Positions 521-45,454 of a stretch of DNA of 64,000 nucleotides are shown here, in pieces (position 1 is the stretch's first letter; each line of letters begins with the position of its first letter). Below the pieces are notes generated by a model. It was not told where the DNA came from. It was given only the letters and a program-made list of their open reading frames with translations, and ran no database searches. Location: contig OY759222.1 of NCBI GenBank assembly GCA_963662175.1, forward strand, positions 12,844,222 to 12,908,221. Reading direction: 5' to 3'. Both the position numbers and the translations under genes were made by a program. Source of the stretch: Aradus depressus. Taxonomy: Eukaryota > Arthropoda > Insecta > Hemiptera > Aradidae.

Positions 521-784
521 AGAAAAAAAATCCCATTGTACATCTATATATTATATCTCTGGTGTTTGGGCAAAAGTAAGTCAGAATAAGTCTTGTGGTA
601 CAAAGGACAAGTGCATTTAAATATTTTTACCATATCTAACTGAATGTTGGAATATTTTACTTTGTTTATTTCCAATATTTTGTGTAAGGAGACTTGTTGA
701 AATTATTGTACACAATTTGTTTCTTTTTAGTTCTTCTCTCTCAATTAGTTTACACTTTCGCTATTTATTCATCTTTTGTATAAT

Positions 785-822
785 AGTCAAACAGTTTCAG
801 GCATTGCCCATTTTCAATGACT
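785..822 (-). ncRNA. Hammerhead-ribozyme-like motif, U3/A8 core (element A, left arm)
   Basis: Read on the minus strand: stem I AGTCA/TGACT, core TTGAAAA where CTGANGA is usual, one extra T, stem II GGGC/GCCT with an AAT loop, then GAAA. It is the inverted partner of the motif at 1097-1134 and has one G-U pair in stem II. Confidence 0.5.
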
Positions 823-1096
823 TAATTTTATTAACATGTTTCATTTTTAATTTCCTTTATTTTTCAAACTAATATAAGTTTATCTGTGTTTCTCAACATC
901 TTTATTTTGTCCTATTAAGTCTTCTATGTATAAAAAAACTGTTTAACTTTAAAACTGTTTAAAAAAAATGGTGGAACAAGATAACTTATACATAGAAGAC
1001 TTAAGAGGACAAAATAAAGATGTTGAGAAACACAGATAAAGTTATATTAGTTTGGAAAATAAAAGAAATTAAAAATGAAACAAGTTAATAAATTTA

Positions 1097-1134
1097 AGTC
1101 ATTGAAAATGGGCAATGCCCGAAACTGTTTGACT
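1097..1134 (+). ncRNA. Hammerhead-ribozyme-like motif, U3/A8 core (element A, right arm)
   Basis: Stem I AGTCA (1097-1101) pairs with TGACT (1130-1134). The core is TTGAAAA (1102-1108), stem II GGGC/GCCC with loop AAT, GAAA at 1121-1124, and a short stem III ACTGT. The only core departures from CUGANGA are C3 to U and G8 to A, which together keep a base pair. Confidence 0.55.
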
Positions 1135-1144
1135 ATTATACAAA

Positions 1145-1392
1145 ATAAATAAAACAAACTATTTTTTGAAATATTGTCTATTCCACTAAAGATATTTATA
1201 AAAATACAACTACCGGTTTCGGCCTCATACCATCGTCTATGAACAGTTCATAAATAGACCTGACGATGGTGTGAGGCCGAAACCGGTAGTTTTATAAATA
1301 TCTTTAGTGGAATAGACAATATTTCAAAAAATAAGTTTTTTATTTATTTATTACAAATTCCACAATATGTCCGCGTTCCTCAACTTAGAAGT
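1145..1392. mobile_element. Penelope-like element B nested in A, target duplication ATTATACAAA
   Basis: A 248-bp insertion with inverted arms (about 1145-1235 and 1260-1351), a 41-bp extension on the right (1352-1392) and a 10-bp duplication at 1135-1144 / 1393-1402. The arm and the extension end CTCAACTTAGAAGTT recur at 52765-53327, proving this is a family and defining its borders independently. Confidence 0.75.
1256..1292 (+). ncRNA. Hammerhead ribozyme motif, consensus core (element B)
   Basis: Stem I AGAC (1256-1259) pairs with GTTT (1289-1292, one G-U). Core CTGACGA at 1260-1266 fits CUGANGA, followed by an extra T, stem II GGT/GCC, GAAA at 1279-1282, and a palindromic stem III ACCGGT that leaves a UA cleavage dinucleotide. 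The layout fits minimal type I hammerheads of Penelope-like elements, where the palindromic stem III favours action as dimers. The inverted partner (about 1211-1246, minus strand) reads TAGACGA and has lost the core. Confidence 0.7.
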
Positions 1393-1589
1393 TATTATAC
1401 AAATGATGAATAAATAGTGAAAGTGTAAACTAATTGGGAGAAAAGACCTAAAAAGAAAAAAAATTTAGTACTTTGTTTATATTTAATACCGTACTATATA
1501 GAAAGAATATTTCAAGTAGCATACATTTTTTTTTTTTTTTTTTTTTTTTCAAGTAGCATAAATGGGTTTTACCTGATTTTCAAACCTTC

Positions 1590-2290
1590 TGAAATTCCCC
1601 TCTTAAAATTCAGATTTTCTGACTTAAGCCCTTTTGCCCGAGATATACGTATCCAGAACCCCATTAGGGCAACAACTTTTGATATGTTCCCCAAACTGAC
1701 CGCCACAATTACACAAAATTGGCCGAAATAAACAGGGGGATCAGAGGGGTGTCTCAAATCAAAAACTCCAATAACTGCCGCTGTAATAAATGTATCGACA
1801 CGAAATTTAGTATGCAGATTCAGTATTCCCTACGTAAGATAACTATTGATTTTTAGCTAAAATTGACGATTGGTTTTAGAGGAAGAGCGAAAACTTAATT
1901 TCTCGGATGAAAACATTGCCGGTGATTCACCGACGATTTTTTTTTTAGTGTGTATTTATTACTTGAAATGTATGATATATCTATTCAGGTAACCCTTTAA
2001 GGACGATAATTATTTATTTTCAGCCAAATTGGGCAAATGGAAGGGTGATTAGGGGGAGGCTTAACTCAAAAACTCTTAACTACAAAACAGCCGTTGTAAT
2101 GATTGTATTGACACGAAACATTATATGTAAATTCAAGGTTCTACAAGGATGTTACCTATTAATTTTTAGCGGAATCAGGCGAAGGGGTGAGGAGGATGAT
2201 CAGAGAGGGCTTAGCTGAAAAATAACTGACGATTTAATGAATGTATCGACACAACACCGTACTGACCGATTACATAACTTCATCTATACT
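1590..2290 (+). repeat. Family F, two adjacent copies
   Basis: The first runs from the ACGTATCCAGAACCCCATTA landmark to the terminal GCCGGTGATTCACCGACGA at about 1945; the second (about 2000-2290) is less complete. A third reversed fragment lies at about 2750-2890. Confidence 0.65.
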
Positions 2291-3025
2291 TCACAGGGGG
2301 AACTAAGACCCTTGACGCCTGCTTGAAGACAGACATTTAGAACGAGAGTTTCTTTTGATCTTCAACATTCAAAAAAATTACTTCCAACGAAAAAAAAAAA
2401 AAACGGGACCACAAGTCATAAATATTGACCTCTAAGTCAATAGTCTCGTCTATTGAGGCCTAGTGTTTATCACTAAAATCGATCTACTCCATCTCTACGT
2501 TATTATACACAGACATGAACAAACTACTACGTTTTTTTTATTTGTACTTTTCTGTTTCGTTTGTTCTTATTAATACGAAGGAAGGTTTCGTGTTTGCGTG
2601 ACAGACCATTTTTTCGGCTTTATCAGACAGTTACAAAGTAAATTTATTTGTCTAACGTTGAACAAGTTGAACATTATTTTTATTTATTTGTTTTACTTCT
2701 TGTTTCAGTCCTAGATACATAAAAATGTATTTACAAAAAAAAGGTTGTGTGTGAATCACCAATGTATTTCCCCATAGGCTCAGTCGGGCCTCTGAATCCT
2801 CATAATAGATTCTGTGTCGATATCAATACTTATTATGGTTTTTGAGTTGTGCCTTCCCCCCACCCCCTCTGAAAATAGATAGGTGTTTTTATGGGGTTTT
2901 TGATTTACATATAATAGATACCGTACAAATGATTAAATTATTTTGATGAGGCAACTTGATTTCATTGTGGATAGGATGGCTTCTATAGTCGAGTTGTCGT
3001 CTCCTAGCATCTCATGTAAGTGCCT

Positions 3026-3407
3026 CACAGGTTGTCAAACAAAATATAGTCTGACCTCTCACAGATTTTTATTAGTAGTGGTAGCTAGCCGGCTTTCGAG
3101 GTTTCCCTCATCATAGGGCAGTCTGATAAAAAATTAAAAAAATTTTTGAATAAAACTAAATAATTTTATAATAAAAATAAATAAATAAAACAATTTAAAA
3201 TATCATGGATGGGGACAGACGAGTTATTCCTGTTCACCATCTGAGTCACAACTGTAATTTTTTATCAGACTATCTGATGATGAGGGAAACCTCGAAAGCC
3301 GGCTAGCTACCACTACTAATAAAAATCTGTGAGAGGTCAGACTATATTTTATTTGACAGCCTGTGAAATAATCACTTCTCACTACATCAGCCATCTTCAT
3401 ATTATTG
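3026..3407. mobile_element. Penelope-like element C, target duplication ATGTAAGTGCCT
   Basis: Inverted arms 3026-3140 and 3255-3365 pair over about 110 bp with a 115-bp AT-rich loop. A 42-bp extension (3366-3407) lies on the right only. The 12-bp duplication is at 3014-3025 / 3408-3419, and the LINE reading frame continues across it, confirming the borders. Confidence 0.8.
3271..3310 (+). ncRNA. Hammerhead ribozyme motif (element C), stem I weak
   Basis: CTGATGA at 3274-3280, extra T, perfect stem II GAGG-GAAA-CCTC, GAAA at 3294-3297 and palindromic stem III AGCCGGCT followed by A (UA site). Stem I does not pair well in this copy. The minus-strand partner (about 3080-3116) has the same stem II and III but its core reads CTATGATGA, so it is broken. 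Confidence 0.55.
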
Positions 3408-4065
3408 ATGTAAGTGCCTTGTTCGAACCCCCAGTTAGTACTTCCTTATACACTCCTCCAGGATGTGGCATACTGTGAGAGGCCAGGCCCCACACCTGCC
3501 ACAGCCCTGGGGTGCCACCCTGCATCATCAGACACTCCTGCCTATTCCGCCTTTCCGATCTTTTCCACATATCAATATTTGTTTTGATGGACCTAAGTTT
3601 ATTTGCTAGGTTTATGTTAGTCCACAACTCTAAGTTTCCTTTATATTGCGACGCAGCCATTTCTTCAGGTCTGATACTATCGTCATTATCTATTTCTTCT
3701 CCAGACAACGTTGCTGCATCCTTAGCCACTTTATCAGCTGCATCGTTCCCTTCGATTCGCACATGTGAGGGGATCCAGCGAAAAATTACTATTTCTTTTT
3801 TACTTGCACAAAAGGAGTTTTTGTATTTTATGCATTCACATTTGTTCGTTTTGGCTAAAAATCGATATGTGTCTTACTCAGAGATTTATTGAATTCTCAT
3901 ATTTAATTTCGTAATGAAACAATCGTTACTGTGACAACCATTACAATTTTTGATTTGCAAATCCCTTCTCAGATTCTTCACTTCTCAAGAAAATGGCAAG
4001 AAAGTTTGTAAATTTCCCAGGAGGGAAAACACGGCTAGTAATTTAATAAAAAATACTATTTACAG

Positions 4066-4221
4066 TTTGCCGAACTACATAGGGCAGTATATGAAATCAA
4101 CTGGTATGAACTGCCGCCTGAAGATAGACGTTATATAATAATAACACAAGAAGTTACGAAAAAACCGATTCTACTGAAGGGTGGAAAAGTATTTACAGCT
4201 TCTCTTCAAACCTACGTTGAG
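4066..4221 (+). CDS. Odorant receptor (7tm_6), penultimate exon
   Basis: A 52-codon open exon bounded by a TTTACAG acceptor and a GAG|GTAACG donor, both phase 0. The peptide has the family's most conserved C-terminal features: AVYEINWYELPPEDRR (the region before the last helix, with the W-Y-x-L-P signature) and KKPILLKGGKVF followed by S-L-Q-T-Y, matching the typical 'P-x-x-L-x-A-G-K-x-x-x-x-S-L' core of transmembrane segment 7. Insect odorant receptors are inverted seven-helix subunits that assemble with Orco into ligand-gated cation channels in olfactory neurons; that role is family knowledge, not visible here. The exon has higher GC than its surroundings and no stop. Neighbouring introns are 4.0 and 1.4 kb and are full of transposable elements. 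Confidence 0.93.
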
Positions 4222-4439
4222 GTAACGCTAGCGTTTCTTTAGTGGTTTCATTTGTTGAAAAAAATAGTTTATGTTTGTGATATTTAAGGATATTTCGGTA
4301 ATTGTGAGGTATTGCTTGATCTACTATACTAATATAGATTTAATTAATCAATTTATCTATCTTCAGTTTAGTAATAAACGAAAATAATTTTGCCCCATAC
4401 ACTGTGATATGTGTGTGATAACAGAGTAAACGTCAGTTA

Positions 4440-4894
4440 TATCCAAGTATGTTGGCTTCTATACATAATATAGCCTATAGTGTATGAACAGTGGCTGTAT
4501 TATGTCAATGGCTTCTGTACATTAGGGCTTCAATATTGTCTTATAAACACTATAATGTATTATTAATATAGTCTATTACAACAATTGTTCCTATTAAAAT
4601 AGACAACCGAAATCCAAAACATATATGTAGGCTATAGTGTATGAACAATGGCTGTATTATAACAATGGCTTCTGTACATTAGATCAATATTGTCTTACAA
4701 ACACTATAATGTATTATTAAGATAGCCTATTACAACAATTGTTCCTATCAAAATAGACAACCGAAATCCGAAACATATATGTAGGCTATAGTGTATGAAC
4801 AGTGGCTGTATTATAACAATGGCTTCTGTACATTAGATCAATATTGTCTTATAAATACTATAATGTATTATTAAGATAGTCTATTATAACAATG
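4440..4894 (+). repeat. Tandem repeat, about 155-bp unit, 2.7 copies
   Basis: The landmark GTGTATGAACA recurs at about 4480, 4637 and 4791, a period of 157 and 154 bp. Units are over 90% alike and include TGGCTTCTGTACATTAG. The array continues at 5179 after a Penelope-like insertion. Confidence 0.85.
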
Positions 4895-5002
4895 AAAACT
4901 GACATAATTGCAGAGATATTGTGAAATAATTCAAATGGACTTGAAAATAAAATAAAACTGGTTTATTTAATATGTTGTCTAATTTCACTAACTATATATA
5001 CA

Positions 5003-5038
5003 TGGGAGTACTTTCGGTATTTCTACCATCCTCAGCCA
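5003..5038 (-). ncRNA. Hammerhead ribozyme motif, consensus core (element D, left arm)
   Basis: Minus strand: stem I TGG/CCA, CTGAGGA, extra T, stem II GGTA-GAAA-TACC, GAAA, palindromic stem III AGTACT, then C (UC site). Identical to the plus-strand motif in the other arm. Confidence 0.72.
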
Positions 5039-5064
5039 AAAGCCAGTCTTATCTCTTATGCTTT

Positions 5065-5100
5065 TGGCTGAGGATGGTAGAAATACCGAAAGTACTCCCA
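5065..5100 (+). ncRNA. Hammerhead ribozyme motif, consensus core (element D, right arm)
   Basis: Stem I TGG (5065-5067) pairs with CCA (5098-5100); CTGAGGA at 5068-5074; stem II GGTA/TACC; GAAA at 5088-5091; stem III AGTACT; predicted cleavage after C5097. Confidence 0.72.
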
Positions 5101-5253
5101 TGTATATATAGTTAGTGAAATTAGACAACATATTAAATAAACCAGTTTTATTTTATTTTCAAGTCTATTATAACAATGGTTCCTATTAAAATTGATGACC
5201 AAAACATGGATATTGATGAACGGCTTGCAGTCTGAAAACTCGATATTTAGACG

Positions 5254-5555
5254 TGACTCGTGACCGGGCTTTAACTACCAAGGGCATATGGCCTACAACC
5301 ACTGTGCTCTTTCGTCACTCTGATGGACATGAGTCCGACTCCTGGGAGTCCTAAATTGTGCCTACCCAGTTTTATTTGCCTTAGGTAGGGGGCTTTAATG
5401 AGTAGCTAACATTGTACAGGCTCTTAACGTCCCATCCGAAGGAGGGCGTGCTCAATTTTTTTTTACCTCCTAGATGAATGGCCTCGGCAGGGTTTTGAAC
5501 CCAGGATCTTGAGCTTAGTAAGCAAGCACTCTACCTCTGAGCTACTAGCGCCCTC
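5254..5555 (-). mobile_element. SINE-A copy, near full length
   Basis: SINE-A is a tRNA-derived SINE of about 345 bp: a tRNA-like head with A box TAGCTCAGTGGTA and B box GGTTCGAAACC, a conserved centre GTCCTTCGGATGGGACGTTA, and a 3' end GGCATGAGTCATAA plus short repeats. This copy is reversed and diverged, with the head at about 5490-5555. Confidence 0.85.
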
Positions 5556-5655
5556 TTATAACACAAAAAAATGTTTTAAAAACAACTTAAAAAATACATT
5601 ATTAAGTATTTAGTTATCGAAACGTAATGTACTAATTTTTTGTTGGTTATTTCAG

Positions 5656-5712
5656 GTTTTGCGGCAATCTTTCTCACTGTACGTTCTAGTCAGAAGCCTT
5701 ACAAATAACTAA
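5656..5712 (+). CDS. Odorant receptor (7tm_6), last exon and stop
   Basis: After a GGTTATTTCAG acceptor the phase-0 frame reads VLRQSFSLYVLVRSLTNN and then TAA at 5710-5712. The final short exon with a V-L-x-x-S-x-S-x-x-x-L-x-R pattern is the usual C terminus of insect odorant receptors. Length (18 codons), phase and position all fit the exon at 4066. No frameshift or premature stop was found in the three exons, so this copy looks intact at its 3' end. Confidence 0.9.
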   Translation, partial: VLRQSFSLYVLVRSLTNN

Positions 5713-5809
5713 AATGATAAAACCGGCTACCAAGGCACATTCTTCGTAAATTCTTTCAAGACTTTAGAACATTTATTAGAAAAAAATTATAAAACTTTAA
5801 AATTAGATT

Positions 5810-5815
5810 AATAAA
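5810..5815 (+). terminator. Poly(A) signal of the odorant receptor
   Basis: AATAAA lies 98 bp after the odorant-receptor stop codon in an AT-rich 3' UTR. It is the first canonical signal on this strand after the last exon. Confidence 0.5.
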
Positions 5816-5926
5816 ATTTTGTGATCAGGAACTGAAGCATGATTGAATTTCTTAAAGAAAGGAGTTAATTTAAAAAAAATCCTCATCCACATTCACTTTA
5901 ATTGGAAAAAGGAGTGAGCTCTCGAG

Positions 5927-6124
5927 ATGGCGATGAATATTAAGAGCGGCGCGGCCATTGAAACAGTTTGCTCCGGAGGGATGTTTCTATGTATTCTACA
6001 AAGTGTAAGAAAGGACGTCTTGGTGAGTGCAATCATTACAGGGAGTACAGATAGTACTCGTAAAGATTTATTAACTATTGGGAATACTTCTGCAGTTCTA
6101 GAGAGTTCGGAAAAAGTTCGATAG
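5927..6124 (+). CDS. Possible first exon or small ORF, 65 codons
   Basis: An ATG with G at -3 and +4 opens a 65-codon frame starting MAMNIKSGAAIETVC. Local GC is higher than in the flanks and two good donor-like sites (GTGTAAGA near 6001 and GTGAGTGC near 6021) fall inside it, so it may be a first exon rather than a complete ORF. It begins about 210 bp after the odorant-receptor stop. I do not recognise the peptide and see no domain. It could equally be a chance ORF. Confidence 0.2.
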   Translation: MAMNIKSGAAIETVCSGGMFLCILQSVRKDVLVSAIITGSTDSTRKDLLTIGNTSAVLESSEKVR

Positions 6125-7298
6125 GTAGCAGCAGAATAAAATCCTGAATCGTTTATATGACTTTATGCAAGGCAAAACACTTTAGACCTAATCACATTTC
6201 TCTGTATTATTTTATTAAATGAGAATCGATGGCTCATGGTCACATGAAATGATCAAGTGAGTATAAATGATGTGCGACTCATGTCAAAGGGGTATTCATT
6301 TTGCCAAGTTGGGGATTCTGAAATTCGGACTAGACTCCAAGCTAGGAGGTGGGAGACTCAATAACGGTTAGACCGGTTCCCATGAAGGATTTTTTGGCGG
6401 ACGACTTTTGCGACTGTTTCGAGGTCAGAAAAAAATATATGACCAAATAGTTATAAAAAAAAGGGGACTTTTCAGCTTCCAATCAGCCGGTCGATGGAAG
6501 AACAACACATTCTTGGGCCATCAGGTGACCATCTAGCTTATAAGAAGGTGCTTGAATATCCTCTGCTTAAGCTAAATTTGAGACAAACCAATTTTTTTAA
6601 ATTATTCTAAAAATTGTTTACTTAAAATGGAGATTAGAAAGAGATACTGAAAATACATTATTTCTATGGTCACAGGGAATAAGTTGTTAAGTCGAAAAAT
6701 GACCAAAATGAGTTAAGTGTAGTGTGATCACCTCCCAAACCGTCTGCGCACTGTGAAAAAATTGGTAGCTCAGGACTCTAATACTTTCGGAATTATAAAG
6801 ATGTGGGTTTCTTGTTATCTCTTAAAATTGTGTATGTTCGGCTAAATCAACTTAATCTACTTCTTTGAGGAATCATTCAAGAGATAACTGCATTTAACCA
6901 TTTATTCACTACGGCAGATTCCAAGTGAAGAGGGCGTTTTCGGTTAAATCAACTTGCTCAACTTTAGAGAGGCATCATTCACGAATATTTCAAAAAGTAT
7001 GGTTAATAATTAGGTAAGTGATAAGGGATGATTAGGTAACTAAGGGAAAATCCAAGAAAGGATTAACAATATTCATTTTCATTCACTCCTATAGACTTAG
7101 AAGGTATATGATTATTAATGATGCAAACATAATTTCTTTATTCCAAAAACTGGATTTACACGATAAATGCAAAAGTAAAAAAAGTGCTGCTCTGAAAAGT
7201 TACGAATTACCAATTTGCAGGCATTCGTTCATCCAAATTGTAATCCACAAATTGTTTCGAACCTACTTAAGCTAAGTAGGGCTCCATATATTTACTTA
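6125..7298. other. Unassigned AT-rich stretch with a diverged local duplication
   Basis: No convincing gene. A short segment is duplicated about 100 bp apart: ATTCGGCTAAATCAACTT near 6837 and TTCGGTTAAATCAACTT near 6939, each followed about 25 bp later by GGAATCATTCA or GGCATCATTCA. A 36-codon ORF starts at 6494 (MEEQHILGPSG), not recognised. Confidence 0.4.
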
Positions 7299-7520
7299 GA
7301 GGGAGCCGGTAGCTCAGTGGTATGCGTGCTTGCCTTCTGAGCTCAAGGTCATGGGTTCGAAACCCAGCCGAGGCCCTTTGTTTAGTTTATCTGGGAGGTA
7401 AAATAAACTTAGGCACGCCGTCCTTCGGATGGGACGTGGCTCATGTCCACCAGAGTGACGAAAGAGCTCTCTGGTAGTAGGCGATATGACCAGTTAAAGC
7501 CCGGGCAAGAGTCATAATAA
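7299..7520 (+). mobile_element. SINE-A copy with internal deletion
   Basis: Head with A box and B box intact at 7299-7380, then the sequence skips from the GGATGGGACGT centre straight to the GGCTCATGTCCACCAGAGTGACG part. Tail is of the ATAACTAAC type. Confidence 0.85.
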
Positions 7521-7779
7521 CTAACTATAATAACTTATAATATTTACTCATGAACAGTCCAAGTGATTTAAATTAAACATTTTGCATGGAAATATGCTTA
7601 TATAGCGTGCCACTAATTTGTGACTTAAATTTTTAATTATTATTTTTAAGATGAAAAAAAATAAAAGCAAAAAAGTCAAAGAAAGTTAGTAAACAAAATA
7701 TCTATGTAAACGTTTTTCGTGCAAATTCGTACTCTATGTAGGACTGTGACTAGAGAATATCTTACTTCACCAGCTGTGC

Positions 7780-8340
7780 GAAGTATAGGGGAAGTCATGT
7801 ATTTCATGTTTTTCGACCTCTAAATTCCAAATATGTAAAAAAAAAAATTGGTCTGTGTATCTGTGAACACGATAACTCCCGATAGAACGAATGTAAATAC
7901 ACGAGATTTTATATGCGAATCCAGAACCATCTAACCACAATACTATTAAGAAGTATGAATATATCGACACAAAATTTCATGTTTGCCTTCAAAACCCCAT
8001 AAGGACGACACATCAATTTTCAGCGGAATCTGCAGAAGAGAAGGATCCAGGGGGCTCAACTCAAAAAAATCAATAACAGCCGATGTGATAAACGTATCGA
8101 TATGAAATTATATATTTGAAGTCAAACCCCAATGAGGAGATAACCTGTCATGGGAAGGGCCTCAATTCAAAAACCCTAATAACTGCCGATGTAATGAATT
8201 TATCGACATAAAATTTAATATGAGGATTTAGGAGCTCTGTTGAAGTCCACTGGTTTTGGAGGGGGAGCGAAAAGTTAATTGATTAATTCGTTCTGGGGAA
8301 GTACATTGTCGATAATTCACCGACAACTTTTTTTGTTTAT
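7780..8340 (+). repeat. Interspersed repeat family F, long copy
   Basis: Family F is a non-coding repeat found at least 15 times here. Its 5' part has GAAGTATAGGGGAAGT and ACGATAACTCCCGATAGAA; the middle repeats variants of AACTGCCGATGTAATGAATG and ATCGACACGAAATTT; its 3' end is TGGGGAAGTACATTGCCG followed by GGTGATTCACC, a perfect small inverted repeat. This copy spans most of the consensus. Confidence 0.75.
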
Positions 8341-9350: not shown

Positions 9351-9384
9351 TATAAAATAGATATAAATGCAAATTTTAAATATA

Positions 9385-13575: not shown

Positions 13576-13599
13576 ACTTTAAACAGGTTAATAATAATA

Positions 13600-14283
13600 G
13601 ATATTTGCTAGCGACTGTAGAATTCAAAATTCTGGGGGTATTGAGGGTCAGTCAATGATGAAAACACTATTCAAATGCCAACGTTTCGATATATTTCATA
13701 TCATCATCAGGGCCTAACAAACATGGGGGAATCAAGATTACAAAAATATAATGAGTAATTGATTAAAATTATATATAGGTACATAAATATACATTCACAC
13801 ATACACAAATCCACATAAATACATATATACATAAATATACATCCATATACATATACACATTGATGAAAAACAAGGAAACTTACTATGAATATAGATGGTT
13901 GAGGAGAAGGCATGAAGACTGTGAAGTCTTACGTTCAACTAAGGGTACAGAAGGGTAGAGGGTAACAGATAATAAATCCGGGGAAAACCCCAGTTAACGG
14001 GACTTAAAACTACCTGTTGGCTAACAGATATTTTACTATGTTAAGAAAAAAAAAAAAAAAATCTATAATTATATAAATAGGAACATAAGTTAACTTATTA
14101 ATTAAATGAAGAATTTTAAACAGACAGTTTTTTTAATTTTAAATATAATTGGACACAGAACAATGGATTAAGCAGTTTTGAAGCAAATTGGCATAAATGT
14201 TGCTCAGGTTATTGGTGTCTGTGCGAAAATTGACAGTATTTGAGGTTTTGGCAATATACACCCTCAATACCCCAAGAATTTTG
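13600..14283. mobile_element. Penelope-like element E with one hammerhead motif
   Basis: The ends carry an inverted repeat (CAAAATTCTGGGGGTATTGA at about 13625 and its complement at 14257-14283). A 12-bp TTAATAATAATA may be the target duplication (13588-13599 / 14284-14295), though it is low in complexity. The middle holds a CATA-rich stretch (13785-13860) and no ORF with a known domain. Confidence 0.5.
13678..13714 (-). ncRNA. Hammerhead ribozyme motif, consensus core (element E)
   Basis: Minus strand: stem I GCC/GGC, CTGATGA, extra T, stem II GATAT/ATATC, GAAA, palindromic stem III ACGT, then U (UU site). All core positions match. Confidence 0.68.
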
Positions 14284-14574
14284 TTAATAATAATATTAAA
14301 CAGGTTAATAACTTTAAATTGGTTAGTAAATTCAAGTAGGTTAGTAACGCTAAATATGTTAGGATCTTTAAATATGTTAGTAACTTACAATTTTCCGACA
14401 GCAAAAAGCATAACTTACCTGCAACAGAAAAATAAATAAATTAATAAAGAAAACTACTTGTACAAACATCAAAAACAAGTTAAACTATTTTTAACAAAAA
14501 AGTTTATTACGTATGAGAACATGCTTCTTTCAGTCTACTTTCATTTGAATTTTTACTTCCCCGGCTAAAAGCAG

Positions 14575-30835: not shown

Positions 30836-30924
30836 TTAGGAACACTTTGTCATATGGTTTCTAAAATAAATAAAAACAAACAGTTTGTTTGAATTTTATA
30901 TTGTCTAATTCAACAAATATAATA

Positions 30925-31225
30925 GGTTAGGTTAGGTTTTATGACTCATGCCCGGGCTTTAATTACAAGGTCATATAGCCTACTACCAGAACGCTCTTTC
31001 ATCACTCTGGTGGACATGAGCTCGGCTCTACTGTGGGAGTCTTTAACGAGTACCTGACATCGCACAGGCTCGGAACCATCGCTTAACGTTCCATCCGAAG
31101 GACGGCGTGCTTAAGTTCATTTTACCTCCCAGATAAAATAAACTAAGAGCCTCGGTCGGGTTTCGAACCCACGATCTTGAGCTCAGAAGACAAGCACGCA
31201 TACCACTGAGCTACCGGCGCCCTCT
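30925..31225 (-). mobile_element. SINE-A, near full length, target duplication ACAAATATAATA
   Basis: Reversed copy starting with the telomere-like GGTTAGGTTAGG tail and ending with an intact head. The 12-bp duplication is at 30913-30924 and 31226-31237. About 50 bp are deleted after GTGGGAGTC. Confidence 0.94.
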
Positions 31226-35900: not shown

Positions 35901-36139
35901 TACCTACCAACAGAAGAGGATGACAGACTGAAAAGAGCCGCTCAAGAAAGAATAATAGTTATCTTTCTGCCCGATTTGGGAGTAGATCCGACGGTAACAT
36001 AGTGTAGCTAGGGGAGGGGAGGCGGTCAACCGGCGGTGATAATAAAACAATAGTTTACATTTCACAATCATATTTTTAGTTTAAGTTTAATTAAACTTAA
36101 TAATTAACAATCAGGTACCAAACACAAAATATTAGTTGA

Positions 36140-36240
36140 CTTGAAAAATAAAATAAAACTTGTTTATTTAAGATATTGTCTAATTTCACTAACTATATAC
36201 ATATATGTACATGAGAGTACTTCGGTATTTTTTTCGGTAA
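36140..36240 (-). mobile_element. Penelope-like terminal unit, truncated relative of element D
   Basis: CTTGAAAAATAAAATAAAAC to CATGAGAGTACTTCGGTATT matches 4933-5023. It breaks off inside stem II of the ribozyme motif. Confidence 0.75.
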
Positions 36241-36870: not shown

Positions 36871-36889
36871 TTATTTCAACCAAAAATCG

Positions 36890-37140
36890 ACCGATTTTTG
36901 AAAAAAACTATCGATATAGAATGTTTTTTCTACAACTTTTATTTATAAAGATTTTTGATTTGGTCTGGTCATAAAATTAAGTCTTGTAAAATGTACTTAG
37001 GCCCTGAAGTAAAGTGTCCTTAATTTTTGTTTTCGTCAGTTCATTGCAACAGGTTCAGAGGACATTAAATCGTGAAAATCCATTGAAAACTCGATCTCAG
37101 ATTTTTTGCACAATACAATACTTTTTTTTTTATACAAAAT
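36890..37140 (+). repeat. Family G copy
   Basis: GACATTAAATCGTGAAAATC and GCACAATACAATACTT match the family landmarks; diverged. Confidence 0.55.
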
Positions 37141-38137: not shown

Positions 38138-38150
38138 TTTATTAATATTT

Positions 38151-38496
38151 GAGGGCGCCGGTAGCTCAGTGGTATGCGTGCTTGACTTCTGAGCTCAAGG
38201 TCGTGGGTTCGTAGCCCGACCGAGGCCCTTAGTTTATTTTATCTGGGAGGTAAAATAAACTTAAGCACGCCGTCCTTCGGATGGGACGTTAAGCGATGGT
38301 CCCGAGCCTGTACGATGTCAGGTACTCGTTAAAGACCCCTAACCTAGATGAATAAAAATTTAGGGTAGGCAAAATTTAGGACTCCCACAGTAGAGTCGGG
38401 CTCATGTCCACCAGAGTGACGAAAGAGCGCTCTGGTAGTAGGCGATATGACCTCGTAGTTAAAGCCCGGGCATGAGTCATAAAACCTAACCTAACC
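38151..38496 (+). mobile_element. SINE-A, full length reference copy, target duplication TTTATTAATATTT
   Basis: Complete 346-bp copy from GAGGGCGCCGGTAGCTCAG to the telomere-like tail AAAACCTAACCTAACC. The 13-bp duplication is at 38138-38150 and 38497-38509 and lies in the T-rich (reversed A-tail) end of the neighbouring SINE-B, so this SINE-A jumped into a SINE-B tail. Confidence 0.96.
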
Positions 38497-38510
38497 TTTA
38501 TTAATATTTT

Positions 38511-38702
38511 TTTTGGCTTTATATACGGTGCATATTAGCCATGTCAATGTGTTATATCTAGTTATTTACGACATCCATGGCCCCGGGAGGGAGTTCTATC
38601 TATGAAATAAAACTCACTCCCGGACGGGATTCGAACCCGCAAACCATGGCGGGACCATGCGACCAAAGCCCTATGCTCTAGCCCGCACGGCCACCCCGGC
38701 TC
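38511..38702 (-). mobile_element. SINE-B copy
   Basis: Best preserved SINE-B head: on the minus strand GGCCGTGCGGGCTAGAGCAT then GCGGGTTCGAATCCCGTCC. The B box is perfect. The tRNA-like head is about 85 bp. Confidence 0.85.
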
Positions 38703-38967
38703 CCAAATCATGAGTTTACATTAGTCAAAAGAAAGAAAAATTAAAAAATCGGTGGATGACAATGACTACAAAAGAAAAGTGGATTCAAATCTTTGAAATA
38801 TCTAAAAAAACAGACAGAAATAAATAACATAATAAAGTTAGTTGAGTTAGTAATGTGGATGCCAGGTTCCTTAGCTGTTATTGAACGGTCATTTTCATCA
38901 ATGAAAAACATGAGAACGCCCGAAAGAAGTCTCAAAAAGTAGTCAGAGAATTGCTAAATATAAAAGT
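38703..38967 (+). pseudogene. hAT transposase dimerisation-domain relic, copy 2
   Basis: From 38850 the frame reads VMWMPGSLAVIERSFSSMKN and then MRTPERSLKK before TAG. V-I-E-R-S-F-S is the hAT C-terminal dimerisation motif. With the adjoining SINE-B it is duplicated at 34226-34740, which suggests a segmental copy or a repeat unit that contains both. Confidence 0.75.
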
Positions 38968-39171
38968 TAAAGAGGGCGCCGGTAGCTCAGTGGTATGTGT
39001 GCTTGCCTTCTGAGCTCAAGGTCGTGGGTTCGAAACCCGGCCGAGTCCCTTAGTTTATTTTATCTGGGAGGTAAAATAAACTTAAGCACGCCGTCCTTCG
39101 GATGGGACGTTAAGCGATGGTCCCGAGCCTGTACGATGTCAGGTACTCGTTGAAGACCCCTGCCCTATGCA
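38968..39171 (+). mobile_element. SINE-A 5' half fused to a SINE-B fragment (39171-39212)
   Basis: The head and centre are intact up to GAAGACCCCTGCCCTAT, where the sequence switches to GCAAAGCCCTATCCTCTCGC, part of a SINE-B head. The join falls on a shared CCCTAT. Confidence 0.85.
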
Positions 39172-39221
39172 AAGCCCTATCCTCTCGCCCGCACGGTCAC
39201 CATGGCTCCCTAAATACTACT

Positions 39222-40580
39222 TCCCCAGCACGAATTAATCAATTGTTTTTATTTATTATTATTTTTTTTTTTTTTTAATTTACATCTTTTTTTTATACAT
39301 GAGGTAGTATATTACAGATGCAGGTTGCAATAAAGAATAGTTTAAAAAATAAAGGAAATAAATATAATCATGTGAAGAGATGAATAAATAAATAAATAAA
39401 AAGTTCTCTAATAGCGCTGAAGTAAGAAAAGAGTACAGAGAAAAATATTGTTGAAAGAAAGAGAAAACTAAATAAATAGAAGAAAAACAAGAGAAAATAA
39501 TCTAGTTAAGGGTGACAAAGATCCTGTTAGTAAATTGAACATTAGATTAAATGAAAATGGTTTGCTTAAAAACGGAAAAGAAAAATGGCAGCGTAAAAAT
39601 ATGTACAAAATGAAGAAATAAACAATAAGACTTATATAAAAGCAACTTATAAAGTAATAAAATAACAATAATAAATAAATGAAAAGTCCATTCTGGTGGA
39701 AGTTAAAAGAGTATTACATTTTTAAACTAAAAGTTGTCTACTGACTGCAATGAAATAAAGCGAACAGAACTCAATAGAAGTAACAAGGAAATAAAATATG
39801 CATTTAAGATCTGCAGAAATTTTTTTAGTTTCAAAGATTTAAAAGTAAATATATAAATACTATTGTGCTTTTGTAAATTATTAATGGTTAATAAGCCCTC
39901 CATTTGTGCTAAATCTGTCTTATTAGCATTGATATATTCACTCAATTATTTTTTGCATTAATCAATTGTTTTTACTCTTCGTCTGAAGTAATTTGACCTT
40001 TTGTGCTAAAACTCAATATTTGATTTACATAATGGCTTCTGAATCCTCATAGTAAATTGTGAGACGATATTTTCATTAGATCGTCAGTATATAAGGGTAT
40101 TTGAGACGACCCCCTTTCCAAGGACCGATTTTGTGGAAAATTATTATGTGCCTTATGGAGTTTTAAATTTAAATATATAATGTCATGTCGATATATTTAT
40201 TATACCGGCAGTTATTGAAAATTTTGAGTTGAGCCTTGCCTTTGATCCCTTCCTCCCCATCGACTCATTTCGATGAAAATTAATAGCTGTCGTCCTGAGA
40301 GTTTTGAATTTACATATGAAATTTCGTTCAATACATCAAGTAAAACATTAGTTATTATAATTTTTGTGTTAATCCTCCCCCCTAAACCCCCCTTTTTCTT
40401 TGACCGATTTAGCTTAAAATTAATAGTTATCGTTATTGGAGAGTAATGATACTACATGTACAATTTCGTGCCGATACAATGATTCTATCGGAAGATATCG
40501 TAATCACAGACACATATAGAATAGAAAAACTGAATTTTTTTTTTCATTTTTGGAATCAGGAGGTCAAGAAATATCAAATT
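39222..40580 (-). repeat. Family F copy split by a 705-bp retro-insertion
   Basis: Starts ACTTCCCCAGCACGAATTAA, is interrupted at 39252, resumes at 39957 and continues through GCTTCTGAATCCTCATAGTA to about 40580. Confidence 0.75.
39252..39956 (-). mobile_element. Retro-inserted sequence of unknown origin, 18-bp target duplication, A-rich 3' end
   Basis: ATTAATCAATTGTTTTTA occurs at 39234-39251 and 39957-39974. On the minus strand the insert ends in an A-rich tail (39252-39280), the mark of target-primed reverse transcription. A 72-codon frame (minus 39727-39945) starts MSEYINANKTDLAQMEGLLT, not recognised. It could be a 5'-truncated LINE 3' UTR or a retrocopy of a host transcript. Confidence 0.8.
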
Positions 40581-40591
40581 TCGTTGAAAAC

Positions 40592-40645
40592 GTTCTTGAG
40601 CTCAGAAGGCAAGCGCGTATACCACTGAGCTACCGGCGCCCTCTT
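40592..40645 (-). mobile_element. SINE-A head fragment
   Basis: TTGAGCTCAGAAGGCAAGCG to TACCGGCGCCCTC: only the outer part of the tRNA-like head. Confidence 0.75.
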
Positions 40646-41164
40646 GAAGTCGGTTAATAACTGGTGAGTGTGTTTGTATATATATATACTATGTACTCAC
40701 TGTTGGAAATTAGTTAATATTAAAATAATATTTTTTTCTAAATTATGTTAAATATATTATAATTAACATGTGTTCGGAAAATATCTTGAAAAAATAAAGT
40801 CAGTTGTCTGGACTTTTTGCTAGGTATGTTATTACACTCACATCAACCTTTCTATATAAAAGAAATAAGTTTGTGACGGGTCACATGGCCTTTAATAATC
40901 AAATCACTGTCATCTCTGGAATTTCATCGTGTACTTAAGTGGCGTAGAGAAGTTCCGATGGGCTAGCTAATTAGAAAATCACCTTGTTATACTCTAAGTA
41001 ACACCGTTTATAGGTATTTAATATGTAATATTATGCCGCCAAAAATTAAAAAAAAAAAATTGGAAACTGTACACCTTGAGCGCTCTTAACGTTGAAAATT
41101 TTAACTATTATGATTAAAAAAAATTACAGGAGAATAAATAAATAAAAGGAACTACTTTTTAATC
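40646..41164. other. No gene recognised
   Basis: AT-rich sequence without recognised features. Confidence 0.3.
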
Positions 41165-41965
41165 TCCGACACAAAAAAGCACGTGTTATAAGTTTGAAGC
41201 CTTTGTTTGTGTGTGTGTGTGTAAGTGTGGCATCGTAGCTCCAAGACGGCTGAACCGATTTCAAAGCTGTTTTTTTGTTTCAAAAGCTGGTATTTGCGAA
41301 ATGGTTCTTAGTAGGGATGGGTATCGATTAACCGATTAATCGAAGTAATCGATGATTTGGTAAAATAATCGGTGGTTTTTTAATCGATGTCATCTAGGTT
41401 TGATTAATCGGATAATCGATGATTATTTAACGATTACTAAATTTTTAATTAAATTACAACTCATCCGAAAAACAGGAGAAAAAAAAGAAAAATGAATTAA
41501 TTATTATTCATCCGAAGTGCAACTCGTCTAAAAAAGTGGGAGGAGACTATCGTATCGACTATCGATACAACACAGTGCCTCTGTGGTGAACTGGTGATAA
41601 GTAAAAAGTAACCTTCTAATAGTTCTACTTCTAATTCTAATTTCTAATAATTTGTGTTTTGTCATTTGTGAGTTGTGATTGACTGATTGTATTAACTTTT
41701 GTTTGTGCGTTCGTTTAATCGATTAATCGACTATTTAACCAACGATTAATACTTGTATCGATTAACTAGTAGAAAATAATAATCGATGTCATTAATGGAT
41801 GTTTTGTTGGTCGAAACCCATCCCTAGTTCTTAGCCATGTTTGGTGGAAATCGGGTTTGCCATTTCCAAGATCTTCAGGTTTTATCAGATCCTGTGTAGG
41901 GATCTCGGCCTCTGTTACTAGAGACTTGGAGTTTGAGCTCAAATGTTTATAAGGCCAAGCCCTCC
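41165..41965 (-). repeat. Repeat family H copy split by a hAT MITE
   Basis: The reverse of 32370-32648: GTTATAAGTTTGAAGCCTTT, CTCCAAGACGGCTGAACCGA, then, beyond the MITE, AGCCATGTTTGGTGGAAATC and GAGCTCAAATGTTTATAAGG. A short GT run lies at 41209. Confidence 0.75.
41312..41826. mobile_element. hAT MITE, 515 bp, 8-bp target duplication GTTCTTAG
   Basis: Ends TAGGGATGGGTATCGATTAA and CGAAACCCATCCCTA; the terminal 10 bp are perfect inverted repeats. GTTCTTAG flanks it at 41304-41311 and 41827-41834. An 8-bp duplication with TAGGG-type ends identifies the hAT superfamily. Both subterminal regions are packed with ATCGATTA/TAATCGAT motifs, likely transposase-binding repeats. No ORF for a transposase. 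Confidence 0.95.
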
Positions 41966-42941
41966 CCACCAAGATTTCAGTAAAAAAAATTAATGAACAA
42001 AAAAAATGTAAATTGACTTTTATTCAAAATACCGAAGACTAGCCTTTTTTTTAATTATTTAAATAAATAAAATCAGGATTTTCGTAGATATGTCGTCATC
42101 GTCCCGCGCTCAAATTTTATTGTGTCGGGTTTTTTTTTAATTTTTAATTTAACTTTTTGAAATATATTTATGTGTTATTAGGGTTTTTGTGTTAAGGCCC
42201 CTCTAATCCACCCTTCCTTTTGGTCAATTTGGCTGAAAATCAATTGGTGGCTTAATCAAGTTCTGGATGAGCATAACACAATACGATTTAGTAACACGGA
42301 CAGCGACTATCATCAACGTGTGTATGTCGTTTATCACTAGTGAATGTCCAAATAGAATGAAATACAAATAATTTTTCAGACTTTCAATGATCGTTCAGAC
42401 TTAGTGACATTCATCGGTCATTGTTGACAGCCATCCATTTCGGTCTTTCACAGCAACATATATAATTTCAAAATATGAAAATTATTTATTATTATAGAAC
42501 TCTGACTGTTTAGCATTAGATAATACAGCCATAGAACCCTCTGAATGTGAAGATACACAAGTCACTTCTCACCTTGGAAGTCACCGTGACTTTGCAATAG
42601 TTTTTCCTTATTTGGAGACTGGTTTCGCGTAGCAAATTTAAATCTATTATTATCCCTGATGGAATGTTGGTCTACAAATATCAATTCGTCTGAATATTGT
42701 CTGTTATGCCCTTTCATTTTTCAACGACACTAGATCTATTCATTTTGTCAAAATGTCAATCTGGTTTTGGAGATTCATTATTATAATTAACGCCCAGTGC
42801 TATTCATCAGATTTTCTAAGTATATATTGGCTGAAACACTGCCGAGGTCCTTAGGTATTCTTTCGACAGATACTAGTTAGGACTCCTACGAGTTATTTAC
42901 ACTTTTCATTATTTGTATATTTTATTATTCTATCATAGATG
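41966..42941. other. No gene recognised
   Basis: Mostly AT-rich, probably the body of the element whose ribozyme motif lies at 42943, but no border could be set. Confidence 0.35.
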
Positions 42942-42942
42942 A

Positions 42943-42984
42943 ACCACTGATGATGACGCTGTTGCGTCGAAAACCGTTTCTGGT
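42943..42984 (+). ncRNA. Hammerhead ribozyme motif, consensus core, longest stems
   Basis: Stem I ACCA (42943-42946) pairs with TGGT (42981-42984); CTGATGA at 42947-42953, extra T, stem II GACGC-TGTT-GCGTC, GAAA at 42969-42972, stem III AA/TT with loop CCGT, then C (UC site). Confidence 0.72.
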
Positions 42985-43266
42985 CTAAAATAAAACAGTG
43001 GGAAGATAACGTCTTTTATTTCTAGGATAAATCTCGTCCCACATATGAAAAAAGTATCCGTTCATGTTTTTGGAAAAGCAACAGTTTGGAAGGAAATAAA
43101 GGATGAAGATGAGGGGGCTCTCAAAGGGGGGGGGGGGCGCTTTAAGTATCACTTTTATTCTACATTTCTTCTGTTTTTCGTTTTTTTCCAAAAAATTTGA
43201 TTGAGCATTTTCGTAGAGAATTTAATGTTCCTTAGTTTTTATAAGAACTATTTTTTTAAAATAGTC

Positions 43267-43310
43267 TGTTAGTTATTGTGACTCAGGCCCGGGCATTAAC
43301 TATGAAGTCC
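43267..43310 (-). mobile_element. SINE-A 3' fragment
   Basis: TAGTTATTGTGACTCAGGCC and CGGGCATTAACTATGAAGTC only. Confidence 0.7.
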
Positions 43311-43484
43311 TTTTTTTTTTATATAATCTACATAACGAGATATTTACGAAAAATCTGTAAAAACAAATGGTTGACTTTAGAGTACATCGTAATATCAAAA
43401 GAGCGGCAAAGTTGTTTTTACAAATAACTTGAGCGAAGAAGAAATTCGAGGTTCTGTCGTGTAAATGAAAAAATACAAAATTTA

Positions 43485-43523
43485 GCCAACGTTTCGAAAA
43501 CTATTTATTTCCTTCTTCTGGGC
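43485..43523 (-). ncRNA. Hammerhead-like motif with U4 changed
   Basis: Minus strand: stem I GCC/GGC, CAGAAGA where CTGANGA is expected, extra A, stem II GGAAA/TTTTC, GAAA, stem III ACGT. One core base differs, so activity is doubtful; layout is otherwise that of element E. Confidence 0.45.
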
Positions 43524-43599
43524 CTTATAATGACTTGAGTGGATTTGTGTGGTGAAGGTGTTGTGAGTAAGCTTTGGTGTTGTGTATGTAACTGTATGG

Positions 43600-43875
43600 G
43601 GAGAGCCTTAACACAAAAACTCCTAATAATTGTCTATGTAACTAATAAATCGATTTAAACATTTTATATGTAAATTCAAAATCCCAGAATGGGCCGAAGG
43701 GAAGGGTAGGATCAGAGGGAGCCCAACTCAAAAAATATGTAGGGCCGACATAATTAGTCAAATATGTATTTTCAGCCCAAACGATTGATTGTAGAGATGG
43801 AGCATGAACTTAAATGATTAAATCGTTCTGGGGAAGTCCATTGCTGGCGATTCACCGATGAATTTTTCCAAACTA
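43600..43875 (+). repeat. Family F copy
   Basis: AATTGTCTATGTAACTAATA to GGGGAAGTCCATTGCTGGCG and TTCACCGATGA. Confidence 0.65.
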
Positions 43876-44207
43876 AAAATGAATAAATAAAAAATTGTCA
43901 CCAGACAAGTCCACATGTACCGAAACGCGCCCTGCCGACTGCATTCCCCTTGCCCCACTTCAAGAATGCAACGCTAAACCTGTTTTGGCTCCTTTGGGAC
44001 TAAAAGGTGAGTTAAAGGTGTGCTCATATTTCAAATTAAGAAAAGGAATAAATCTCATTGGGGGTCCTCGCTTTGATGGGCAAGTGATTAGCGTTACTGG
44101 GTGTCCTGGCACGTGTTCCCAGTCTCTCTTTCAAGATTTGCCACTAAATTTATTATTTCATGCCCGCCTCCTTCCCATATATCTTTATGAAACAAAATTC
44201 AGATACA

Positions 44208-44710
44208 GTAGAATCTCCCTTATCCGGAGTTGCCGGGACCGACGTGACGCCGGATAACGGAAATCATCAATTAATGAAACAAAATATATCAATTAAAGCA
44301 TAAAAAAAGTGTGTTTAGGTGAGGTAAGGAATAAAACAGGTATGTATTTCACAGGTAGGATCCCCATTCATGCTTTGATTCAATGAAATGGCTTTTTGTT
44401 TTAAAATGACATCACTTCTAGGGCAGTCTAGGTTGGGTTGCTGCACGAACCACATCCACACTGCCTCGTCAAGTTCCTCTAATTGTGGTTTCTTTAAAAT
44501 TGATCTGGCATTGAGTTGTTGTTTTTCCAAAGGTACACTAAAACCAAATTTCCTCAATTTTTTTTTTTACTTTTCCTCCAATGTACTCTCACCAACCCCT
44601 AATTCCTTGGCTATTTTAGCAGCTGTTTCTCCATTTTCCATCCTTTCAATTGCTGTCAATTTTTGTTGGATGGAAAAAACAATTTTCTTTCTTTTTGAAG
44701 TGGAAGCCAT
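44208..44710 (-). mobile_element. pogo/Tigger-like element remnant, N-terminal transposase part
   Basis: On the minus strand an ATG at 44708-44710 opens MASTSKRKKIVFSIQQKL, then TAIERMENGETAAKIAKELG and VGESTLEEK, a psq/CENP-B-type helix-turn-helix, then a TAA in an A run near 44563, and in the same frame LRKFGFSVPLEKQQ and LDEAVWMWFVQQ. This is the DNA-binding N terminus of pogo/Tigger/Jerky-like transposases. The DDE domain is missing. The left end CAGTAGAATCTCCCTTATCC followed by GCCGGATAACGG is a pogo-type terminal repeat. The other end was not found. Confidence 0.8.
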
Positions 44711-45002
44711 TGTTTTATCACTTTATAACTTGATGATAAAAAAAAAAAGACCGTTCACTATCCTGCACCGACCGTACAAAACATCCGTAAAGAACGTAAA
44801 CAAAAACGTCGTACGTGAGTAAAATAAAATTTTAAACATTCAATTTCACTAACGAAAAAAACGATTCAACGATTCTTTTCACTATGAGAATACGTAATAC
44901 AAGTTACCATAGTGATAAAGGTTCTGTTTAGGGTTAGATAATTAAAATTAAAAATTGAAATACACAATTTCTTTGTCAAACTTCACTATATATTCTCAAA
45001 TA

Positions 45003-45040
45003 CTCAACTAGTTTCGCCGTGTTAAGGCATTATCAAGATT
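45003..45040 (-). ncRNA. Hammerhead-like motif, U3/A8 core (element J, left arm)
   Basis: Minus strand: stem I TC/GA, TTGATAA, extra T, stem II GCC/GGC, GAAA, palindromic stem III ACTAGT, then U. Confidence 0.52.
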
Positions 45041-45203
45041 CACTTACAAACTGACAGAATTGGTTGACAGGGTAGAAGGTACAGTTATGGAGGGGTTTTT
45101 TTTTTAGGTAACAAAAACAAGGGATTCCCCGTCATTACCAAAAAAAAAAACCTCCATAACTGTACCTTCTACCCTGTCAACCAATTCTGTCAGTTTGTAA
45201 GTG

Positions 45204-45242
45204 ACTCTTGATAATGTCTTAACATGGCGAAACTAGTTGAGT
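45204..45242 (+). ncRNA. Hammerhead-like motif, U3/A8 core (element J, right arm)
   Basis: Stem I ACTC (45204-45207) pairs with GAGT (45239-45242); TTGATAA at 45208-45214; stem II GTC/GGC; GAAA at 45229-45232; stem III ACTAGT; then U. Every part is well formed except the paired C3-to-U and G8-to-A change. Confidence 0.58.
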
Positions 45243-45454
45243 ATTTGAGAATATATAGTGAAGTTTGACAAAGAAATTGTGTATTTTAATTATCTATTCC
45301 TAGAATGGAGCTTCACAAAGTAAATCTGGAAACCATAAATTATCTGTTTAGGGTCTTCAATGTTAAAGGCCGTAAAACGAAACCCTTAAATTTCCTTACT
45401 TGCATAAGAATTTGTAAATTTTCTGTTTTGCATAAATAAACTAAAAACAGGCAA

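Follow-up and report, generated by a model that had tools for sequence, protein, structure and literature searches.

The 64,000-nucleotide (nt) stretch of Aradus depressus (Hemiptera, Aradidae) DNA analysed here, referred to as the window, corresponds to positions 12,844,222 to 12,908,221 of contig OY759222.1 in assembly GCA_963662175.1, read on the forward strand. It holds five short foldback insertions, A, B, C, D, and J, which lack open reading frames (ORFs) and consist of two inverted arms with hammerhead-like motifs, a tail on one side, and flanking direct repeats (Table 1). Penelope-like elements (PLEs) are counted as a third class of eukaryotic retroelements and their mode of insertion is little known; the origin of their inverted repeats has so far been put down, tentatively, to self-priming. 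The kind of element found in the window is already known, and the account of its inverted form given here is new. Each foldback was very probably made de novo, by two-strand target-primed reverse transcription of the leader of a Penelope RNA.

The original prediction placed five ORF-less foldbacks in the window, and arm alignment and exact repeats agree in locating all of them as listed in Table 1. In the window alignment, the arms are identical at 102/102 positions in D, 105/111 in C, and 156/166 in J. The arms of A match at 152/159 inner and 64/70 outer positions, and those of B at 90 of 109 columns, 16 of which are gaps. The spacers between the arms measure 1 nt in B, 16 nt in D, 23 nt in J, and 118 base pairs (bp) in C. 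As predicted for target duplications, exact direct repeats of 11-17 bp adjoin all five elements (11 bp in B, 12 bp in A, C, and J, and 17 bp in D), and placing elements at random produced flanking repeats this long (11 bp or more) 7 times in 20,000 trials. Taken together, the arm alignment, the target repeats, and the random-placement control make a chance origin of the five foldbacks untenable. Empty sites for two of them are found within the window, namely the left arm of A for B, and the sister tandem units 4543-4612 and 4699-4766 for D. The region 4440-4890, the insertion target of D, is composed of tandem units of ~156 bp that act as such empty sites. A one-sided extension, which also formed part of the prediction, was seen in all five elements as a tail of 33-47 nt. 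The claim that the five sequences are unrelated needs qualification, as the arms of B and D are alike (z 4.2) and the five tails are jointly more alike than shuffles (p 0.0025).

A scan of the window for hammerhead-like motifs, with a pattern written after the motifs had been seen, gave 11 matches against a mean of 0.15 in 40 Markov shuffles; stem I lies outside the pattern and provides an independent test. With one shift allowed in the count, stem I pairs at 28 of 32 positions over 8 families, compared with 18.4 when strands are swapped among families (p 0.0001). Stem III is self-complementary in 6 of the 8 window families, and A and J have U3-A8 where the other families have C3-G8, which is a paired change at two positions. 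No Rfam match at gathering scores was obtained in the window, and RNAalifold predicted no pairs on the MAFFT alignment of the motifs, which is a poor alignment. Judged by sequence and covariation, the foldbacks appear to carry the Penelope trait of a hammerhead motif in the pseudo-long terminal repeat (pLTR). The motif was predicted to lie near the inner end of each arm, and this is so in B, C, and D, but the core is ~115 nt away in A and ~75 nt away in J. Both arms cross the cleavage position in A-D and J, and B and C have left arms in which the motif core is changed or missing. In C (3255-3290 versus 3117-3136), 4 of the 6 arm mismatches fall within 5 bases at the core, and in B (1246-1265 versus 1230-1244) a 9-nt gap lies at the core; these differences look as if one complementary DNA (cDNA) had crossed a blocked or damaged core. 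Penelope-like retrotransposons reportedly contain small hammerhead variants whose cleavage takes place in dimers (Lunse et al. 2017). Six of the eight window families resemble these variants in having a minimal motif with a self-complementary stem III; the window elements A-D and J differ in that both arms span the cleavage position. When relatives outside the host were looked for with the hammerhead pattern, 11 stretches in viral contigs and at least 119 in genome contigs were returned, and among these 130 records four had one stem or the other and none had both.

The whole-genome search proposed in the original prediction was carried out in the host assembly (698 Mb), where all five families are repeated. 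First-look candidates, which are not confirmed copies, number 3,095 for C, 1,156 for B, 1,108 for J, 972 for D, and 223 for A. Forty candidates were scored in each family search, and those matching over full length include D copies at 97-100%, B copies mostly at 88-93%, and C copies mostly at 80-88%. The assembly contains 2,850 exact matches to a 33-base string from the start of the D leader and none to the reversed control. Target duplications of 12-15 bp flank 18 of 20 D copies. Inverted pairs are seen in A, B, C, D, and J, and tandem units in D and J.

The Penelope origin suggested in the prediction is borne out by coding elements that share the ends of the foldbacks: full-length relatives with reverse transcriptase and GIY-YIG domains were found for D and J, the two families in which coding relatives were read. 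J copy L180 has inverted J arms, one tail, a 12-bp duplication (by reading), and a frame of 468 amino acids (aa) that matches RVT_1 (2.2e-14) and, under the Pfam cut-off, GIY-YIG (0.0049). The J tandem unit L217 contains an 814-aa frame (RVT_1 2e-14; GIY-YIG 0.0018, under the Pfam cut-off) whose start is encoded by the tail of the window J, the translated tail being the beginning of the J Penelope ORF (IPRMELHKVNLETIN). The D tandem unit L224, with a period of 2949, matches the leader, arm, and tail of the window D at 164/164 positions at both ends. Its coding part (sense strand, 195-2666) consists of three overlapping frames of 124, 569, and 190 aa, of which the second holds the reverse transcriptase match (RVT_1 1.8e-16) and the third the GIY-YIG match (4.1e-5, over the Pfam cut-off); the split into three frames may reflect an intron or frameshifts. 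YVDD is present in the frames of L180 and L224, and a frame of L176 has a GIY-YIG match over the Pfam cut-off (3e-5). L218 is a coding D pair whose ends match the D reference at 164/164 and 123/123 positions. The J protein search, with 91 candidates scored, gave 92 matches, some of them with stops, and these include frames of ~814 aa; a J tandem array has a period of ~2912. Compared with the ends of L180, the short J pairs (n=7) show 95.6-100% identity and the longer J pairs 90-100%. By reverse transcriptase, GIY-YIG, pLTR, and tail, the foldbacks are assigned to the endonuclease-containing PLEs.

The tail of a foldback corresponds to the front of the Penelope ORF, or to the leader just upstream plus the first bases of the ORF. 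The arms of the pair would start at two sites, of which the nearer lies upstream of the ORF and the farther lies inside it by 11 nt (D) to ~40 nt (J). Coding sequence is absent from the foldbacks because these start sites are at the front of the Penelope ORF. The original prediction took this loss for a special form, a notion that becomes superfluous as start sites at the ORF front already leave a leader and a few codons. A comparable arrangement has been studied biochemically in PAc, a Poseidon element of Anolis carolinensis. According to the available sections of that study, both target strands are cut and extended, reverse transcription starts from two adjacent internal sites bounding the tail, the dominant substrate is unprocessed RNA, and a U3-A8 double mutant regains some activity (PMC11167929). 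PAc and the window elements have in common a minimal hammerhead motif of the CUGAGGAUG type and the two adjacent start sites that bound the tail. The distance from the cleavage position to the farther site is 82-89 nt in PAc and 102-119 nt in the five window elements, and the main start of PAc lies 111-118 nt inside the ORF, considerably deeper than the farther site here (PMC11167929). In the same sections, extension on both strands is not linked to inverted genomic copies (PMC11167929).

From the biochemistry of PAc and the anatomy of the foldbacks, the simplest account has one cDNA primed by each target strand, each from a different site. Near the front of its ORF, the RNA of a PLE would bear a minimal hammerhead motif and, after it, two sites ~33-47 nt apart at which reverse transcription starts. 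Staggered cuts by the PLE protein, ~11-17 bp apart on the two target strands, would leave two 3' ends, one of which would prime at the nearer site and the other at the farther site. From there, each cDNA would be extended toward the RNA 5' end, across the hammerhead motif and the leader. Subsequently, the two cDNA ends would be joined in the middle, with a joint that is new in each insertion. The product would be a head-to-head inverted pair with one tailed arm and target duplications at its flanks, and a run-off copy of the leader would hold at most the first few codons. Priming at the nearer site on one strand and at the farther site on the other would leave one tail only. The two-strand model would in this way account for the duplicated target and the single tail, for arms that lie head-to-head with similar outer ends, and for joints that differ. 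We infer that both strands are cut and primed, that the cDNA ends are joined, and that the leader end is the transcription start. Support for two-strand priming comes from the ends shared with coding PLEs (D and J), the one-sided tails, the duplications, the variable joints, and the coding pairs of the same design, together with a leader end that is fixed in D and nearly so in C. No proposal of dual-site two-strand priming for inverted PLE copies was found in the literature surveyed; the survey was partial, and no priority is claimed. LINE-1 twin priming also uses two primers from one target and leaves inverted arms and target duplications. In LINE-1 the two cDNAs derive from different stretches of the RNA, whereas here both cover the same leader from two fixed starts.

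The order of neighbouring copies extends the pattern beyond the short foldbacks. Among the first 100 of the 2,850 D leader matches, neighbours less than 6 kb apart comprise 17 head-to-head cases, separated by 34 to 5,066 bp, no tail-to-tail case, and 10 direct ones (seven at 70 bp in one array, the others at 118, 2949, and 3782 bp). Likewise, the 92 J coding matches include 12 head-to-head, 0 tail-to-tail, and 5 direct neighbours within 6 kb. Coding copies form the same head-to-head pairs as the foldbacks, and from the spacings and order of the neighbours, the ORF-less foldback and the coding pair are two ends of one range. In L223 (279-744; G000:C1:11428200-11429150), a D-type arm is followed by seven 70-bp tandem units and then by unrelated sequence. 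Each unit comprises the 46 nt that open the D leader, hammerhead core included, and 24 other bases, and the 12-mer gaagcacatctg occurs near both ends; the array has the look of a nascent hammerhead satellite or of repeated jumps between templates. At G000:C9:26056013-26056654, A-family arm pieces recur every ~170 bp, perhaps as a second small array.

The inner limit of the arms is best judged by comparison with the coding unit, which is the proper test of the leader end. When 38 D leaders are compared with this unit, 31 match 0-2 bases upstream of the leader start AGTCTTATC, 5 match all 15 upstream bases tested, and 2 match 7-8. The five that match throughout are probably copies of a longer RNA, and the two-peaked result would mark the RNA 5' end, whatever the reference. 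In C, the long-arm end is nearly fixed in 20 pairs and reaches the reference end, and the sequence continues with CT after ACAACT and then diverges in 12 of the 19 rows that could be read, which are the window and 18 of the 20 copies. A transcription start of C would be expected near AGTTGTGAC. The short C arm ends at 86-146, mostly within some 30 nt upstream of the hammerhead core. A set of 60 distinct pairs (20 C, 20 D, 15 J, and 5 A), from which duplicate loci, loci where no adjacent pair could be read, and the C and D copies of the window itself are omitted, also has a fixed long-arm 5' end (C 1-7, D 1-2), which is partly built in because the references begin at the window joint. The tailed D arm ends at 8-16 in the 20 pairs and reaches 1 in L231, L235, L236, and L242, which belong to a leader-chosen D sample made up of the first 20 isolated matches on contig C1 and five pairs fetched earlier. 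AGT stands at the start of the leader in D, B, C, and J, in the case of J on the evidence of two or three of seven short pairs. AGT resembles the arthropod initiator and is a hint that the leader end may be the transcription start.

The joints between the arms bear on the reading put forward in the original prediction, in which the inverted pair is a stable non-autonomous unit that is transcribed and inserted whole, with PLE proteins supplied in trans. If such a unit replicated, its joints should vary about as little as its arms. Several features agree with such a unit: many copies have complete outer ends (D, B, and C; 40 scored per search), the D tail ends fall within ~5 nt and the no-tail ends within ~10 nt in 18 of 20 copies, the C loop is present in 20 fetched copies, and some D copies have a joint form in common. 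Nevertheless, the D inner joint takes 14 forms in 21 distinct copies (20 fetched and the window copy) whose arms are nearly identical. No D arm or tail variant is common to two copies among the 20 aligned, the window copy included, in a comparison that left out approximately the first 8 nt at the tail end. With seven leader-chosen copies added, 26 of 27 fetched D joints are readable and give 19 distinct strings, one of which differs by an arm base; these joints carry extra bases and unequal arm ends. The C loop turns out to be leader sequence in the longer arm, and the tail occurs on either side of it, with the no-tail arm long in 15 pairs, the tailed arm long in 4, and 1 pair tailless (n=20). 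In J, both arms break within template positions 1315-1756 in 14 of 15 pairs, and L180 reaches into the ORF. In addition, the D arms equal the leader of the tandem coding unit. The identical junctions that the original prediction proposed to look for were not found, and variable internal break points, the kind of result that it named as refuting, are what the genome shows. The varying D joints leave the reading of the inverted pair as a stable copied unit unsupported, the joint data largely refute it for C, D, and J, and it is now very unlikely. C was also considered by itself as a fixed unit and rejected on the variable joints of its fetched copies.

Two-strand priming predicts a single tail, and the 60 pairs comprise 51 with one tail, 7 with one tail and an ambiguous end, 1 with two tails, and 1 with none. 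A number of points have to be set against this explanation. Most copies in the 60-pair set were retrieved as the best matches to a query with one tail, a choice that works against tailless copies, and its category of no tail includes arms whose alignment stops short, as in A. One D copy (L200; G000:C5:46162453-46163421) has tails on both arms, and one pair (L151) is tailless. When 15 D pairs were picked regardless of tails, 13 were one-tailed, 2 ambiguous, and none two-tailed or tailless, a result with a chance of 3e-5 under random site use if the ambiguous pairs count as one-tailed. Pairing is not obligatory, as judged from single-arm insertions. Of the 20 isolated D matches, 10 are compact pairs, and for the other 10 no second arm is present in the ~230 bp retrieved on the side concerned. 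Five of these 10 continue backwards into the 3' portion of the coding unit (one of them rearranged), and the remaining five start at the leader start or no more than 7 nt from it; among the latter is L229, a single leader that has a 12-bp duplication. Joint forms recur, with one form in five D copies and another in three, which a few copied units would also give. In two C copies, L146 and L150, the sequence runs on alike for some 15 bases past the usual leader end, so the leader end of C is not strict. Finally, the positions of the two inner ends of a J pair show no significant correlation (r 0.44, p 0.07, n 14), and a coupling of the two J arm lengths was rejected at this p value.

Self-priming would produce the foldback from a single cDNA, or from an antisense RNA template as proposed for the PLEs of Adineta vaga, that folds back and is copied into a hairpin. 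In the available sections of the A. vaga report, Pen2a and other elements have inverted pLTRs, mostly head-to-head and with a 31-bp tail on one of the pLTRs, target duplications of 8-10 bp, and a pLTR that extends into the first ORF codons (PMC3846280). The window elements resemble them in the inverted pLTRs, the one-sided tail, and the target duplications; the A. vaga pLTRs, as described there, flank an ORF or captured sequence, whereas ORF-less leader-only pairs are common here (PMC3846280). The palindromic junctions of A. vaga were interpreted as self-priming (PMC3846280), and the short spacers of B, D, and J would suit that process, whereas the joints studied here point to two separately primed cDNAs. 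If the first arm had served as template for the second, the tail should have been copied too, yet one arm nearly always starts at the nearer site; self-priming does not predict a single tail. The D joints with extra bases and unequal arm ends, the C spacer, and the interiors of coding pairs, which span kilobases, also speak against a hairpin made in this way, and self-priming is very unlikely to account for the foldbacks. It might further be supposed that the foldbacks were once fixed units whose hairpin tips were altered by repair after insertion, the variable joints being secondary. The tips of long palindromes are indeed unstable. However, tip repair leaves unexplained the switching of the C tail side, the constant D leader end, the coding pairs, and the J break points spread over hundreds of nucleotides, and is therefore highly improbable. 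Animal retrozymes, small circular hammerhead RNAs inserted by PLEs, share the hammerhead motifs, AT-richness, non-coding content, and target duplications of the foldbacks, but there is next to no prospect that they explain them, given that the retrozymes in the available part of the report are tandem repeats with canonical type I motifs (PMC7229834), whereas the copies here are inverted pairs with minimal motifs that in D and J sit in the leaders of coding PLEs.

Other features of the window add to this picture. Two more elements of the same plan, P and Q, have unequal arms. The right arm of P is like the left over 24 nt (96%) and weakly beyond, and the right side of Q has only the last 26 nt of the B tail in common; inside the window alone, Q versus B is the only evidence on break points. 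Lone hammerhead-like motifs or arms occur at 42947 (+), ~43510-43525 (-), 36138-36230 (-), and 30850-30925 (-). The lone arm near 36 kb is D-like (85%), and the motifs near 43.5 and 30.9 kb were chosen by eye. Partner ends of those at 42947, ~43510, and 36138 were looked for and not found. A search of 10 of the 31 window ORFs of at least 90 aa gave two weak RVT_1 matches, one Transposase_1 match, and no GIY-YIG.

Table 1. Foldback elements in the window with their flanking repeats and hammerhead-like motifs (window positions)
Feature	Position	Strand	Details
Element A	670-1468		tail ~670-715 (left); arms ~716-933 and 986-1144 + 1404-1462; split by B
A target duplication	658-669; 1469-1480		exact, 12 bp; copy 1 TACTTTGTTTAT
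A hammerhead-like motif	788-817	-	left arm; core TTGAAAA; U3-A8 replaces C3-G8; mirrored on plus strand from 1102
Element B	1145-1392		inside A; arms 1145-1244 and 1246-1347; right tail ~1352-1392
B target duplication	1134-1144; 1393-1403		exact, 11 bp; copy 1 TATTATACAAA
B hammerhead-like motif	1260-1288	+	stem III self-complementary (ACCGGT)
Element C	3026-3407		arms 3026-3136 and 3255-3365; spacer 118 bp; right tail ~3366-3407
C target duplication	3014-3025; 3408-3419		exact, 12 bp; copy 1 ATGTAAGTGCCT
C hammerhead-like motif	3274-3305	+	stem III self-complementary (AGCCGGCT)
Element D	4895-5161		left tail 4895-4941; arms 4942-5043 and 5060-5161; joint region 5044-5059
D flanking repeat	4878-4894; 5162-5178		exact, 17 bp; outermost bases possibly the element's own
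D hammerhead-like motif	5068-5097	+	right arm; minus-strand mirror image from 5035
Element J	44935-45342		arms 44946-45111 and 45135-45298; right tail ~45297-45342
J target duplication	44923-44934; 45343-45354		exact, 12 bp; copy 1 TCTGTTTAGGGT
J hammerhead-like motif	45208-45238	+	U3-A8; minus-strand mirror image from 45036
Element P	13600-14282		left arm with hammerhead-like motif (13710, minus) and short tail
P repeats	13587-13599; 14283-14295		13 bp; ambiguous, repetitive flank
Element Q	52765-53326		B family; long left arm, hammerhead-like motif (52860, minus), tailless
Q target duplication	52751-52764; 53327-53340		14 bp

Dual-site two-strand priming might also be the normal route of PLE insertion, with each built-in site used once, one per target strand, although this wider proposal is a tentative one. 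Either one RNA would serve as template or two RNAs held together, perhaps via the self-complementary stem III. If so, the real role of the hammerhead motif would be to pair templates, which would explain why the motif is retained although insertion in vitro needs no cleavage. It would also explain the head-to-head one-tailed neighbours, from leader foldbacks of 270 bp to coding pairs of kilobases.

The thousands of leader copies in one genome constitute a natural record of single insertion events, in which each arm has its own one of two start sites, the leader end is fixed, and the joint differs between copies. With this record, an in vitro result from one lizard element becomes a testable rule for the class of PLEs. 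For annotation, the foldbacks are a warning that families with conserved ends need not be elements themselves. Rather than self-copying miniature transposons, they would be a hairpin record of how Penelope-type retrotransposons insert.

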